5,429 nt of DNA. Origin: Acidimicrobiales bacterium. GTDB taxonomy: Bacteria > Actinomycetota > Acidimicrobiia > Acidimicrobiales > Poriferisodaliceae. The notes under the pieces are model-generated. The model saw only the letters and a list, made by a program, of their open reading frames with translations, was not told the origin of the DNA and did not search any database. The translations under genes were made by a program, and so were the position numbers. Every line of letters begins with the position of its first letter. Positions within the stretch are counted from its first letter, which is position 1. The stretch lies in assembly GCA_020631315.1 (NCBI GenBank), contig JAHDHM010000264.1, positions 1 to 5,429 on the forward strand, in the 5' to 3' direction. Below, one piece after another: positions 273 through 5,388 of this stretch.

Positions 273-1619
273 TCAGACCAAGTCGAGTGAGCTGGGCGTC
301 AGGTTCTCGGGGCCGTCTTCGGTGATGAGGATCTGGTTCTCGAGCTTGACGCCCTCGCCGCCTGCCCTCGGGCCGACGTAGCTCTCGACGGTGAGCACCA
401 TGCCGAGTTCGAGGACGCCGTCGAACCCCCAGTCGTCCCACACTCGCGGGAAGTAGATCTCGGGGTACTCATCGCACTGACCGACCCCGTGGTAGAGGCA
501 CGAGTAGTGCCGGTACTCGTCGACGGGCGGCACGAAGCTGTCGAAGGTGAGCTCCCGGAACGTGCGGCCTGGCGTCATCAGCTCGGTGTTGCGTTCGATC
601 TGCTCGACGGCGATCGCATGCGTGGTGGCCTGCTCCGGCGTCGGTGTGCCGCCCCCGGCCCGGTAGGTGCGGGAGATGTCGATCATCATCCCGTACGCGC
701 CGACGAGGTCCGTGTCGTAGGCGACGAGGTCGCCGTCCTCGATGACCCGGCTCGACGCCTCCTGGAACCACGGGTTGGTCCGGGGACCGGAGGCGAGGAT
801 CTGGGTCTCGATCCACTCCCCTGCACGGCGGATGTTGCCGGCGTGCAGCATCGACCAGACCTCACGTTCGGTCATGCCGGGTGTGAGGGCGGCCCGGAGC
901 TCGTCCATCGTCGTCTGGCAGGCGTGCGCAGCGCAGCGCATGGCGGTGATCTCGTCGGGCGTCTTGATGGCCCGGGCCAGCTCCATGAGTGCCTGGCCGG
1001 ACTCGACGGTGAACCCTGCGGTCTCGAAGTCCTTGTAGGCCCAGTACGAGGTCTGGTCGATCGCGACCTTGGCGCCGGGGCCACAGTCGTGTGTCATGAC
1101 CTCGATCAGTTCGGCGGCGAACCGGTGGGCGATCTCCTCCTGGCGCGGTCCGCCGAGGAAGTAGGTGTGGCCGACGGCCGGACGCACCTCGGTGATGAGG
1201 TCGTTGTGGCCCGACAGGAACTCGCTGCCGAAGTAGTCCCACACGATGAGGCGTTCCGCGCTGACCCAGGCGTAGCGGGCGCCGTTGTGCATCACCCAGA
1301 TCTGCATGTTGGTCGTGTCCGACACGTACCGGATGTTCATCGGGTCCATGACGAGCACGCCGCCGACGTCGCTCAGCTCCAGCTGGCGTCGGACTCGTTC
1401 GAGGCGGTCGGCCCGCATCCTGTCGAGGTTCGGGAGCTCCAGGCCGGCGGCTGCCCACTCGGAGATGCACGGCTCGCCCGGCCCGATGTTCAGGTGATGC
1501 AGGTACGTCGCTGCGGCGTCCCACTCGTTGCTGCCGTCGGCGTGCGCTTTGGCCGCACGTGACATCGAGAACGACTGCGTGGCGGACTGGTGGAGGGAGT
1601 CAGCGATCTTGCCGGCCAT
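273..1619 (-). CDS. dddP: DddP-like DMSP lyase, M24 (creatinase/aminopeptidase P) fold
   Basis: This 448-residue protein has the two-part M24 layout: a creatinase-type N-terminal domain (about 55-220, with DPMNIRYVSDTTNMQIW) and a pita-bread metal domain (about 225-440). Visible metal ligands are D302, D304, D314, H377, E412 and E427. Compared with DddP of Ruegeria lacuscaerulensis, as I recall it (D295, D297, D307, H371, E406, E421), the offset is a constant +7 then +6. The same offset puts D383 and Y372 on the catalytic Asp377 and Tyr366. Family-like blocks include WAAAGLELPNLDRMR, AMRCAAHAC, GEWIETQILASGPRTNPWF and YSCLYHGVGQCDEYP. DddP cleaves dimethylsulfoniopropionate to DMS and acrylate in the cytoplasm using a dinuclear metal site. 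DddP is best known from roseobacters, so an actinobacterial copy is notable. No Shine-Dalgarno precedes the ATG, but a -10-like box lies exactly where a leaderless transcript would need it. An internal ATG (codon 19) is an alternative start. A plain Xaa-Pro peptidase is less likely because of the extra Asp at 302 and the DddP-specific blocks. Confidence 0.8.
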   Translation of the reverse strand: MAGKIADSLHQSATQSFSMSRAAKAHADGSNEWDAAATYLHHLNIGPGEPCISEWAAAGLELPNLDRMRADRLERVRRQLELSDVGGVLVMDPMNIRYVSDTTNMQIWVMHNGARYAWVSAERLIVWDYFGSEFLSGHNDLITEVRPAVGHTYFLGGPRQEEIAHRFAAELIEVMTHDCGPGAKVAIDQTSYWAYKDFETAGFTVESGQALMELARAIKTPDEITAMRCAAHACQTTMDELRAALTPGMTEREVWSMLHAGNIRRAGEWIETQILASGPRTNPWFQEASSRVIEDGDLVAYDTDLVGAYGMMIDISRTYRAGGGTPTPEQATTHAIAVEQIERNTELMTPGRTFRELTFDSFVPPVDEYRHYSCLYHGVGQCDEYPEIYFPRVWDDWGFDGVLELGMVLTVESYVGPRAGGEGVKLENQILITEDGPENLTPSSLDLV

Positions 1620-1719: not shown

Positions 1720-2142
1720 TCAGGCCGGCGGGTAGACGCCCATGCCCTGGGCCTTCTCGGTGGCCCAGAAGATCACGCTGATCTCGTCGATGAGCTCGAG
1801 GAGGTCGCGGCCGAGCTGCGGGTCCATCGACTTCTTGGCCTCGCCGGCGGTGCGGATGGCACGCCAGAACAGGTCGTGGATCTGCGGGAACTCCTCGATG
1901 TGGGCGGGGGTGAAGAAGTCGGCCCACAGGACCATGAGGTGGTGCTTGACCTGCTCGGCGAGCTCCTCCTTGACGGAGATGCAGCGGGCACGGAAGACCT
2001 CGTCGTCGGATCCGTGGTACTTCTCGGCGGTCTTCAGGACCGACATGGCGTCGATCTTGGCCTGTGCCGGGTCGTAGACGCCGCAGAACAGGTCGCAGTG
2101 AGCGTGGGCGACGGTGGCATCGGTGAAGAGCTGCTTCAGCAC
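1720..2142 (-). CDS. sodN: Nickel superoxide dismutase precursor (SodN)
   Basis: This 140-residue precursor belongs to the Ni-SOD family, which disproportionates superoxide to O2 and H2O2 as a hexamer of four-helix bundles. A 14-residue propeptide (MLKQLFTDATVAHA) precedes the hook HCDLFCGVYDP, the same propeptide length as in Streptomyces. After cleavage, His1, Cys2 and Cys6 (precursor H15, C16, C20) would bind nickel, and Asp3 and Tyr9 are kept. Family blocks VKHHLMVLW, DFFTP and IFWATEKA follow. The hook is odd: the usual Pro5 is Phe (codon TTC), and by alignment with the S. coelicolor protein from memory Glu17 is Asp and Arg47 is Leu. There is an extra Cys at mature position 40 and a short C-terminal tail (QGMGVYPPA). 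The GTG start is supported by GAAGGAG six bases upstream and by the propeptide length. The gene is divergent from sodX, its expected processing protease. Confidence 0.93.
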   Translation of the reverse strand: MLKQLFTDATVAHAHCDLFCGVYDPAQAKIDAMSVLKTAEKYHGSDDEVFRARCISVKEELAEQVKHHLMVLWADFFTPAHIEEFPQIHDLFWRAIRTAGEAKKSMDPQLGRDLLELIDEISVIFWATEKAQGMGVYPPA

Positions 2143-2148
2143 CAGGGA

Positions 2149-2155
2149 CTCCTTC
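2149..2155 (-). promoter_or_regulatory. Ribosome binding site fixing the GTG start of sodN
   Basis: GAAGGAG on the - strand lies six bases before the GTG at 2142. It is the best Shine-Dalgarno in the window and decides the start, which also yields the canonical 14-residue Ni-SOD propeptide. Confidence 0.8.
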
Positions 2156-2241: not shown

Positions 2242-2634
2242 GTGTCGCTGTTCGATCATCTGGCCCGTCGAGCGGGCGTGCGCCGCATCGGTGTTCGTCG
2301 GTTCGTGGTGGCTGAGGAGTCGATGCTGCCGGCGCTCTCCCCCGGCGACGGCGTGTTCGCGCTGCCGCTGCGGCGGCCGAAGGTCGGGCAGGTCGTCGTG
2401 TTCGAGTCGCCGATCCGGCCCGACATGTGGCTCGTCAAACGGATCGTCGGTCTGGCCGGCGACGAGGTCGAGCTGGACGGTCGCGTCTGGCCGATCGACG
2501 ACGGCGAGATGCTGGTGCTCAGCGACAACCTCGAGGCCACCCGGGCCGACTCGCGGACGTTCGGTCCGGTCCCGATCGAGGGAGCCTGGCGCATGGTCGG
2601 ACGACCGGTCCGGGGTGCCCGACCCGCCTCGTAG
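2242..2634 (+). CDS. sodX: Nickel-type superoxide dismutase maturation protease (SodX), S26 signal-peptidase family
   Basis: The 130-residue product carries the S26 (LepB-like) core. The nucleophile Ser27 lies in AEESMLPALSPGD (boxed SM-P-L-GD), Lys66 in LVKRIVGLAGDEV is the general base, and LSDNLEATRADSRTFGPV near residues 93-110 matches the terminal GDN...SxDSR-G-V box. SodX enzymes remove the SodN propeptide to expose the His1 that ligates nickel. The divergent position beside sodN matches the Streptomyces arrangement and supports this over a general signal peptidase. No N-terminal membrane helix is visible. The first 20 residues are Arg-rich instead, so the enzyme looks cytosolic, as is SodN. 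The start is uncertain: GTG 2242 is chosen because it clears the intergenic region and has a -10-like box in front, but GTG at 2278 or those near 2305-2310 would still keep Ser27. The reading frame stays open far upstream, antisense to sodN, which is not meaningful. Confidence 0.85.
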   Translation: MSLFDHLARRAGVRRIGVRRFVVAEESMLPALSPGDGVFALPLRRPKVGQVVVFESPIRPDMWLVKRIVGLAGDEVELDGRVWPIDDGEMLVLSDNLEATRADSRTFGPVPIEGAWRMVGRPVRGARPAS

Positions 2635-2680: not shown

Positions 2681-3811
2681 TCAGCCCTCGGCGGGTGGCA
2701 GCAGCGCAAGGCAGTCGTTGTCGAGCACGGACTGGGTCGTGCGGTGCACTAGGGCGGTCATCAGGTCGTGCTGGCGGCCGTCGAACGCGTCCCACGACTG
2801 GTACGACGCCGTCGCGTAGAAGAGGCAGAAGGCGGTGCAGATCCGGTAGAGCCGCATCGCCTCCTCGATGCCGAAGCCTTCGACATCGGACGCCGCCAGC
2901 GTGTCGACGTAGAGCTGGACCAAGGCCTCGTCGTGGCCTCGACGAACCTCGGGTGTCAGCGTCTGGCACAGGAAGTAGGCGACGTCGAAGAGCCCGGTCG
3001 CGACGCCGAGCACCTGGAAGTCGATCAGGAACAGCCGGTCATCGGCGTCGAGGAGCATGTTGTCGCCACGGGCGTCGCCGTGGATGAGGGTCGCCGGCGC
3101 GGCCATCTCGTCCAGGAAGAACGGGATCAGCCCGGCGAAGCGATCGCCGAACTCGACCATCTCCGGAGTGAGGTTCGCCGCCTCACGCTCCTTGCAGTGG
3201 GGCCAGTTCGCCTCGAACACCGCCGGCAGGGCGAACTGGTACACGGGAGCCGACAGGGGCAGGTACACCTCGCCGAGCGACGGCAGGTCGGCATGCTCCC
3301 AGAAGAGCGCGTGGAACTCGGCGAAGGCGACCATCGCGGTCCGAGCCTGATCGAGGGTCGCGCCGGCGACCTGGTCGATCTGGTCGAGGGCGCCGAGGTC
3401 CTCCATCACGATCACGAAGTCGACCGAGTCCTCGGCCATCACGGCGCCGTAGCAGCCGGCCACGCCGAAGGGCATCTGCGCTGCGTGCTGTGTGTAGAAG
3501 GTCAGCTCGCGCAGGTACAGCCCGAGGCCCTCGGCCATCGCCCGCTGCTCCGGGGCCTCGCTGGGGAGCTTGACGATGAACGTGGGCGGACCCGCGGCGC
3601 CGTCAGCGTCGTCGGCCGTGTCGTTCGCGTAGGTCAGTGCGACGCGGAACAGCTCGCCGAGGAGGCCTGCGTCCTCGCCGAAGCTGGTCGTCTCGACGCC
3701 GGTGACGGTGCTGTCATCGGCGATGTTGCCGTTCGCCCTGAGGACATCGGTCGCCCACTCGGGCGTGATCTCCTCGGCGCTGCGAATCAGCGGAATCGGT
3801 GCGATCGTCAT
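2681..3811 (-). CDS. Phosphotransferase of the APH / ecdysteroid-kinase-like superfamily
   Basis: This 376-residue protein has the protein-kinase-like fold of the aminoglycoside and choline kinase superfamily. K81 in FIVKLPSE is the likely ATP-binding lysine and E102 in LRELTFY its partner. FVIVMEDLG (132-140) is the hinge, LIHGDARGDNMLL (242-254) is the catalytic Brenner loop with D246 and N251, and LIDFQ (262-266) carries the metal-binding D264. The RELTFY block and the C-terminal ATASYQSWDAFDGRQ stretch resemble the DUF1679/EcKinase-like branch, common in actinobacteria and rarely tied to antibiotic resistance. The substrate is presumably a small alcohol and cannot be assigned. The ATG at 3811 is chosen because AAGGGGG stands five bases upstream. 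The frame stays open to 3973, but that extension has no homology pattern. The gene converges on sodX (46 bases between stops) and may once have followed a GNAT gene on the same strand. Confidence 0.87.
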   Translation of the reverse strand: MTIAPIPLIRSAEEITPEWATDVLRANGNIADDSTVTGVETTSFGEDAGLLGELFRVALTYANDTADDADGAAGPPTFIVKLPSEAPEQRAMAEGLGLYLRELTFYTQHAAQMPFGVAGCYGAVMAEDSVDFVIVMEDLGALDQIDQVAGATLDQARTAMVAFAEFHALFWEHADLPSLGEVYLPLSAPVYQFALPAVFEANWPHCKEREAANLTPEMVEFGDRFAGLIPFFLDEMAAPATLIHGDARGDNMLLDADDRLFLIDFQVLGVATGLFDVAYFLCQTLTPEVRRGHDEALVQLYVDTLAASDVEGFGIEEAMRLYRICTAFCLFYATASYQSWDAFDGRQHDLMTALVHRTTQSVLDNDCLALLPPAEG

Positions 3812-3816
3812 CTGGT

Positions 3817-3993: not shown

Positions 3994-5388
3994 ATGAGTT
4001 CGGTGGAGGTGGGGCCCGAGAGTCCCGACGGACATCATCCAGAGTTCGATCTGATCGAAGTGCCTGCGGGTGTGCCGAGTGAGGTCGCGGCGCTGGTCGG
4101 GGCGTTGAACGCAGCCCGATCGGTCGACTGGTCGATGCTCGATGGCGAGACCCTTGCGGAGTGTCGTGAGCTGGTGGACCGGGTCGGGAACGCGGCCGAC
4201 AGCGTGCAGGTCGAGTTCGTGCGGGCGCTGGATGAATCGTTGGTGTGGGCGCATCGTCGGCACCGGTCGGTGAAGGGTCTGTTGCGTGATGCGACGAACG
4301 CCTCGTCGGGCCGTCAGGGTGAGTGGACCAAGACGGCAGGCAAGCTGGGTCAGATGCCGCATGTTGCTGCGGCGTTCGCGGCAGGGTTGATCGGTCGTGA
4401 TCACGTGCAGCTGCTCGGCACCTGTCTGCATCCCCGCTACGCAGGTGCGTTCGCCGCCGCAGAGGTCGACTTGACGCGGTGGGCGATCGAGTTCGACTGG
4501 GGCTCGTTCACCGAAGCCGTCCGGGCGTGGCAAGAAGCCGCTGACACCGACCAGCCGAACGGTGATGACGAACGGCATCAGAAGGCACGCAGGCTGCATC
4601 ACTCGAGATCGTTCGAGGGGCGCGGTCTGCTGGATGCGACGTTGACGCCGATGCAGGCCGAGATCTTCGACAACGTCCTCCGACCGATCGTCGACGAACT
4701 GTTCACCGCCGACTGGGCCGACGCCGTCGGCCGGTTGGGTGAAGGGAACGTGACCGAAGCCGACCTCGGCCGCACCCCGGCACAGCGTCGGGCTGATGCG
4801 TTCGAAGAGCTGTGCCGCCGTTCAGCCGCCTGGAAGGGTGGTGTGGCACGGCCGTTGGTGATCATCCACGCCTCGGCCGACGCGATTCGCAACGGCCTCT
4901 ACGCCGACGCGGGCCTGCCCTTGCCGTTGGGTGACGGGATCGTCCCCGAGCTGCGCCAGTTCTCCTCCGGACACACGCTGTCGCGTCGGGAGCTCGTGAA
5001 GGCGCTGATCGACGGCAAGGTCTCGACGATGGTGCTCGACGACGATCACCAGATCCTGTCGTGGAGTCGAGGCAAACGCTGGTTCACCCCTGTGCAGCGC
5101 ACGGCGATCGCGGCTCGTGACCTCGAGTGTGTCTGCGGCTGCGGGTTGCCGGCCGATCGATGTCAGATCGACCACGTCATCGACTGGCGCCACCACGGCC
5201 TCACCGACCACTGGAACGGCCGACCGATGTGCCCGCCCTCGCACCGGACCAAGACCAAGGACCCCACCTGGCGACCACCAGACCGACCCGGCTGGGAACG
5301 AGGCCCCACCGGACCACGACTCCACCGACCGGGACGCGGGCGCCGACCCAGCCGAGGCCCCACTCGGGGCCAGACGCCCCGGCCATGA
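3994..5388 (+). CDS. DUF222 / HNH endonuclease, 13E12-repeat type
   Basis: The 464-residue protein begins with a mostly helical DUF222 region (about 30-330) containing LHHSRSFEGRGLLDATLTP and a TPAQRRADAFEEL helix, both typical of the family. A C-terminal HNH nuclease domain (about 365-420) follows. The zinc-type cysteines C379/C381/C383/C390 lead into QIDHVIDWRHHGLTDHWNG, with H394 as general base, N408 as the middle residue and H417 as the last histidine. The usual CxxHH is replaced by CPPSH, so spacing there is altered. After residue 420 the chain is an Arg/Pro/Gly-rich basic tail with a repeated RGPT. Homologues include the REP13E12 genes of mycobacteria, which are repetitive and serve as a prophage integration site, and the family is thought to be mobile. 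The gene uses about 11 TTG leucine codons against one or none in its neighbours. ATG 3994 is chosen from the -10 box and the start of DUF222-like sequence. The frame is open back to 3910 over the GNAT remnant. Confidence 0.88.
   Translation: MSSVEVGPESPDGHHPEFDLIEVPAGVPSEVAALVGALNAARSVDWSMLDGETLAECRELVDRVGNAADSVQVEFVRALDESLVWAHRRHRSVKGLLRDATNASSGRQGEWTKTAGKLGQMPHVAAAFAAGLIGRDHVQLLGTCLHPRYAGAFAAAEVDLTRWAIEFDWGSFTEAVRAWQEAADTDQPNGDDERHQKARRLHHSRSFEGRGLLDATLTPMQAEIFDNVLRPIVDELFTADWADAVGRLGEGNVTEADLGRTPAQRRADAFEELCRRSAAWKGGVARPLVIIHASADAIRNGLYADAGLPLPLGDGIVPELRQFSSGHTLSRRELVKALIDGKVSTMVLDDDHQILSWSRGKRWFTPVQRTAIAARDLECVCGCGLPADRCQIDHVIDWRHHGLTDHWNGRPMCPPSHRTKTKDPTWRPPDRPGWERGPTGPRLHRPGRGRRPSRGPTRGQTPRP

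Follow-up and report, generated by a model that had tools for sequence, protein, structure and literature searches.

Phenylalanine at position 5 of the nickel hook is no one-off: it marks a large actinobacterial branch of nickel superoxide dismutases (Ni-SODs) with Met, Phe or Tyr at this position. We found the residue in a sodN gene of an Acidimicrobiales bacterium, on a stretch of 5,429 nucleotides that we refer to as the window (Table 1). In the accessible text of PMC12933891, the first nine residues of Ni-SOD are a conserved HCXXPCXXY; the window protein departs from this consensus at Pro, having Phe5. An earlier note on this DNA had read the hook as HCDLFCGVY and placed the change at 2083-2088, which we confirm, the lower three positions encoding Cys6 and the upper three Phe5.

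The sodN product passes profile searches with both Pfam Sod_Ni (PF09055; 127.8 bits, cut-off 25) and TIGR02753 (126.3 bits, cut-off 90). The gene starts with GTG behind an AAGGAG that we take to be its ribosome-binding site. Its minus-strand translation reads MLKQLFTDATVAHA up to the leader/His1 boundary and continues as HCDLFCGVYDPAQ... from there. When the protein is aligned to a solved Ni-SOD, the match starts at residue 15.

Table 1. Features of the window
Feature	Position	Strand	Basis
M24-family protein resembling DMSP lyase DddP	273-1619	-	NF043017, 426.4 bits (cut-off 600)
sodN, nickel superoxide dismutase precursor, 140 aa	1720..2142	-	Pfam Sod_Ni and TIGR02753
Thr64 codon (Streptomyces Ni-SOD: Lys64)	1909..1911	-	alignment
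Phe62 codon (Streptomyces Ni-SOD: Tyr62)	1915..1917	-	alignment
Leu47 codon (Streptomyces Ni-SOD: Arg47)	1960..1962	-	alignment
Asp17 codon (Streptomyces Ni-SOD: Glu17, partner of axial His1)	2050..2052	-	alignment; Glu17 role from the accessible text of PMC5722923
Nickel hook H1-C2-D3-L4-F5-C6-G7-V8-Y9	2074..2100	-	sequence
Cys6 codon TGC	2083..2085	-	sequence
Phe5 codon TTC (published hook consensus: Pro)	2086..2088	-	sequence
Putative leader MLKQLFTDATVAHA, 14 residues, preceding His1	2101..2142	-	cleavage predicted from Ni-SOD biology
Presumed sodN ribosome-binding site AAGGAG, six bases upstream	2149..2154	-	motif match
sodX-like S26 signal-peptidase-type protease, divergent from sodN	2242..2634	+	predicted GTG start; profile matches
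EcKL/APH-type kinase-like protein	2681-3814	-	Ecdysteroid kinase-like, 74.8 bits
DUF222 protein	3994-5388	+	74.6 bits

The chance that an error in sequencing or assembly produced Phe5, or that the gene is decaying, is negligible. The earlier note had judged a read error unlikely from the codon, TTC being two changes from CCC, and it was right on both counts. Codon 5 is likewise TTC in the close relative L001 (L084 is the same gene), and the three proteins P0001-P0003, 90-93% identical to the query, all have Phe5, as do 41 of 141 SodN matches in a draw of the class and 40 of the best 120 homologues (see below). Between the window gene and L001, dN is 0.045 and dS 1.04 (dN/dS about 0.04), which indicates purifying selection, and the ribosome-binding site and the adjoining protease frame are intact. 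We rejected read error and pseudogene because relatives carry Phe5 and the gene is under purifying selection.

We counted residue 5 in two even draws, one of 396 genomes from the phylum of Ilumatobacter nonamiensis (SodN in 108, with 110 matches) and one of 247 genomes from its class (SodN in 139, with 141 matches). The phylum draw gave Pro in 71, Met in 25, Tyr in 12 and Phe in 2, so that 39 of the 110 matches, about a third, have a non-proline hook; the class draw gave Pro in 65, Phe in 41, Tyr in 22 and Met in 13. Proline at 5, which the earlier note had called near-invariant, is therefore no defining feature of the Ni-SOD family overall. The note had also named, as a refutation of its reading, a survey showing Phe5 to be common and active in ordinary Ni-SODs; as to frequency, Phe5 is indeed common within the class, but less so in the phylum. 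Together the draws comprise 228 distinct rows (21 rows common to both; duplicates L209 and L214 left out). Two further sets consist of relatives of the query and are thus biased: the best 120 of 2239 homologues of the window SodN have Phe5 (40) or Tyr5 (80) and nothing else, and 79 of the best 80 of 208 genome loci match the strict hook pattern (21 Phe, 58 Tyr), the eightieth, L036, having the hook HCDLYCAVY. A search started from a divergent SodN extends to Chloroflexota and further phyla; of its best 120 rows (924 in all), 119 have Pro5 and the remaining one has no N-terminus. With a Met5 protein as query, the best 120 of 8000 scored have Met (90), Phe (19) or Pro (10), and one is without its N-terminus; seven source-named Met5 rows, including P0130, come from Nitriliruptoraceae, Nitriliruptorales or unplaced actinobacteria.

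We note some variation beyond residue 5. Among the best 120 rows of the divergent search, residue 3 varies in the hooks HCHVPCGIY (40), HCHIPCGIY (8) and HCNVPCGIY (3), and L309 and L311 are of this kind. Two genomes of the class draw have two SodNs each: in G308 (L156 and L176) both are Met5, one of them with Phe62, and in G572 (L275 and L304) both are Phe5.

We built two trees with the residues of interest masked. In the first (82 representatives of 318 rows, column 5 excluded, one short row left out), Pro against the rest takes one change (branch support 71), and all four residue-5 states take nine. In the second (122 of 243 rows; columns 5, 17, 47, 62 and 64 excluded), a starred set of 47 rows (support 95) comprises 26 of the 27 Phe rows, all 19 Tyr rows and 2 Met rows; the odd Phe row, L132, is placed among Met rows. 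This tree is poorly resolved, and in it Pro/non-Pro takes three changes, one of them forced by starred branches. The suggestion that Phe might define a clade thus stands in part: there is a clade, but Phe5 shares it with Tyr5, and Met5 adjoins. Proline is likely the ancestral residue, because nearly all rows of the divergent search have it. The simplest history would then be a single loss of Pro5 in the ancestor of the branch, with Met early, Phe and Tyr afterwards, and later some reversals and Phe/Tyr exchanges; Phe and Tyr codons differ by a single base.

Residue 5 is not the only site at which the window protein differs from known Ni-SODs. It shares with the Streptomyces enzyme (SodN; PDB 1t6u, 1q0d) the Pfam/NCBIfam family, the four-helix fold, His1, Cys2 and Cys6, and also Asp3, Tyr9, Arg39 and Lys89, but has Phe5 for Pro5, Asp17 for Glu17, Leu47 for Arg47, Phe62 for Tyr62 and Thr64 for Lys64. 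We take Tyr62 to have a role in the Streptomyces enzyme. In the 228-row sample, Phe62 occurs in 67 of 68 rows with an aromatic residue 5, in 3 of 34 Met5 rows and in none of 126 Pro5 rows, and Lys64 is retained in 28/68, 34/34 and 124/126, respectively. The exceptions to the 5/62 pairing are L132 (Phe5/Tyr62) and L176, L262 and L273 (Met5/Phe62). Asp3, Tyr9 and Arg39 are present in all 68 Phe5/Tyr5 rows, and Asp3 is retained in 226 of the 228. The SodNs of I. nonamiensis (L003) and Mycolicibacterium vanbaalenii (L066) belong to the same branch as the window protein, with an aromatic residue 5, Phe62 and loss of Lys64, but they have Tyr5 and retain Glu17/Arg47. Nitriliruptoraceae-type SodNs (P0130 and kin) share the non-proline hook and the ligand residues, and differ in having Met5; Met5 rows of the sample retain Tyr62 in 31 of 34. 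Cyanobacterial Ni-SOD has the same Pfam family and hook ligands but Pro5, in a hook given as HCDGPC... in the accessible part of PMC2234264.

Asp17/Leu47 replace Glu17/Arg47 in the window, L001 and P0001-P0005 (P0004 being Tyr5), and P0006 has Asp17 with Gln47; in the window and L001, positions 5, 17, 47, 62 and 64 are all altered. Glu17 is the partner of axial His1 in Streptomyces Ni-SOD, according to the available text of PMC5722923. Arg47 is the second partner of this residue, and both have changed in the lineage of the window. The Glu17/Arg47 pair is not universal elsewhere, either. Asn17/Met47 occurs in 16 Pro5 rows (L231, L232, L235, L236, L238-L240, L242-L244 and L246-L251), whose genomes are about 0.6-1.1 Mb, and Ala17/His47 in L229, L309 and L311.

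How far these changes are coupled was addressed with independent pairs. For 5 against 62 there are just two independent starred pairs, with 62 the same within both, and power is low; the two residues co-occur, with no extra independent events, and any coupling would go back to what is essentially a single event in history. For 17 against 47, a mean of 2.8 of five pairs changed the same way and 0.2 the other way, which is too few pairs. Because of these small numbers, we rejected statistical proof of coupling for both 5/62 and 17/47.

Beside sodN lies a gene for a SodX-like protease (Table 1). The protein scores 58.1 bits against Peptidase_S26 (cut-off 22.9) and 60.6 bits against the general signal peptidase I model TIGR02227, over its cut-off of 47, and 45.5 bits against the curated SodX model TIGR02754, under its cut-off of 63.25. 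A divergent SodX-like neighbour accompanies sodN at 41/42 Phe5, 26/26 Tyr5, 33/34 Met5 and 119/126 Pro5 loci, with a same-strand gene at three more Pro5 loci. We also scored the SodX-like matches with two patterns of our own making, drawn from remembered S26 motifs: S-M-x-P is present in 41/41 (Phe5), 26/26 (Tyr5), 32/33 (Met5) and 121/122 (Pro5), and a looser K-R pattern in 39/41, 14/26, 23/33 and 100/122. SodX, recognised here as an adjacent gene alone, would presumably cleave behind the leader and free His1.

The predicted fold is that of a Ni-SOD. An AlphaFold2 monomer of the mature window protein (pLDDT 91.0) matches 1t6u_A with an E-value of 1.2e-08 and a TM-score of 0.93 by target length, in agreement with the four-helix bundle; the best match to a structure other than Ni-SOD has an E-value of 0.2. 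The hook orders upon nickel binding and within the hexamer, and low confidence is hence expected there in a monomer. Residues 1-7 are under pLDDT 50 (mean of residues 1-10, 50), and in a Pro5 control from L128 residues 1-5 are under 50 (mean of the first ten, 59). We rejected AlphaFold2 as a judge of the hook, which it leaves unresolved whether residue 5 is Phe, as in the window protein, or Pro, as in the control.

We asked which other superoxide dismutases occur in the same genomes. In the class draw, SodN is present in 139 of 247 genomes, Fe/Mn-SOD in 59 and both in one (Fisher p 5e-25, with kinship ignored); that genome, G433, has a Met5 SodN. Among the 62 genomes with Phe5 or Tyr5, Fe/Mn-SOD is matched in none and Cu-SOD in 7, which leaves 55 with neither. 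Genomes with no match to Fe/Mn- or Cu-SOD make up 33/40 of the Phe5, 22/22 of the Tyr5, 11/12 of the Met5 and 61/65 of the Pro5 genomes, a pattern alike for proline and non-proline hooks. Many genomes are in many contigs and draft-like, so a single absence carries little weight and we may have counted too many genomes as lacking other SODs. In the genome (G001) of I. nonamiensis, a cultured Tyr5 species, one SodN was matched, and searches for Fe/Mn- and Cu-SOD gave no match. The exclusion of SodN and Fe/Mn-SOD is no rule of the phylum: according to the abstract of PMC3919588, many actinobacteria carry both sodN and sodF.

His1, Cys2 and Cys6 are retained in all 313 locus and window rows and in all 228 rows of the combined draws. 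Nickel would be bound through the amine and imidazole of His1, the amide of Cys2 and the thiolates of Cys2 and Cys6, residues that are all kept, and the metal of the window SodN is very probably nickel. The earlier note had offered a changed hook, a compensated fold or a different metal preference as readings of Phe5. The first two fit a clade that is shared with Tyr5 and carries changes around the site. The third, for example Cu, Co or Fe, comes from the inference in that note, and we consider it very unlikely: the nickel-ligand residues and the S26 neighbour are kept in the Pro, Met, Phe and Tyr classes, and Fe/Mn-SOD has no match in any of the 62 aromatic-hook genomes. Judged from sequence, non-proline SodNs are very probably working Ni-SODs, because they cluster on the tree, retain the ligands and Asp3/Tyr9 and have a SodX-like neighbour, and because genomes of the Phe5/Tyr5 kind mostly lack a match to other SODs. 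We are accordingly rather confident that the window protein would prove a working nickel enzyme of the non-proline branch. To our knowledge, no Met5, Phe5 or Tyr5 member has a described activity, metal content or structure.

The Leu4-Pro5 bond in the Ni-SOD enzyme is cis. For its model peptides, PMC5722923 describes a trans bond. A bulky residue 5 may now hold the turn by packing, and the co-occurring Phe62 and, in many members, the loss of Lys64 may accompany it. We would expect Asp17/Leu47 to affect how much of His1 is bound and how much free, or else the redox potential, but not the metal. Is the hook, then, retuned rather than neutrally altered? Loss of Pro5, of Tyr62 and, in the window lineage, of Glu17/Arg47 might alter the redox potential, the access of anions or the loading of nickel enough to set a subclass apart; we rate this at somewhat less than an even chance. 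The concerted change of five positions in the window and L001, the altered 17/47 pairs in P0001-P0005 and P0006, and the joint differences at 17 and 47 in the Asn17/Met47 and Ala17/His47 rows point that way, but co-change may reflect common ancestry, and the 17/47 test has too few pairs. Only tentatively, then, do we suggest that Met5, Phe5 and Tyr5 Ni-SODs could be a widespread subclass of their own in function: side-chain packing in place of proline would make the turn, His1 in the window lineage would do without Glu17/Arg47, and tuning, gating or loading would be altered.

If such a subclass exists, measurements should show it to differ in Ni(III/II) tuning, in the gating of anions or in how nickel is loaded from the Streptomyces enzyme, the basis of the Ni-SOD mechanism. 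This mechanism, like the peptides that mimic the enzyme, is built largely on a single hook, HCDLPCGVY; the structures and mutants are reportedly those of Barondeau 2004, Wuerges 2004, Herbst 2009 and Ryan 2015. Among the papers listed in searches of the open literature we recognised none describing a Met5, Phe5 or Tyr5 hook; subscription papers lay mostly outside this scope, and prior mention is possible. The 39 of 110 SodNs of the phylum draw without Pro5, some also without Tyr62 and Glu17/Arg47, are natural variants that make the roles of residue 5, Tyr62 and Glu17/Arg47 directly testable, and the census corrects the hook consensus used in annotation and mimic design.

We also considered whether sodN is viral or mobile. 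It had no match in phages, nine pattern matches and no relatives in viral contigs, and two plasmid records, both under 60% identity; on these grounds we rejected the idea. In the short flanks searched, the DddP-like, kinase-like and DUF222 genes of the window are in none of the other sodN loci. The score of the DddP-like protein is under the NF043017 cut-off, so it may be related to DddP but serve another function, and the C-terminus of the DUF222 protein is, we presume from its look, HNH-like.
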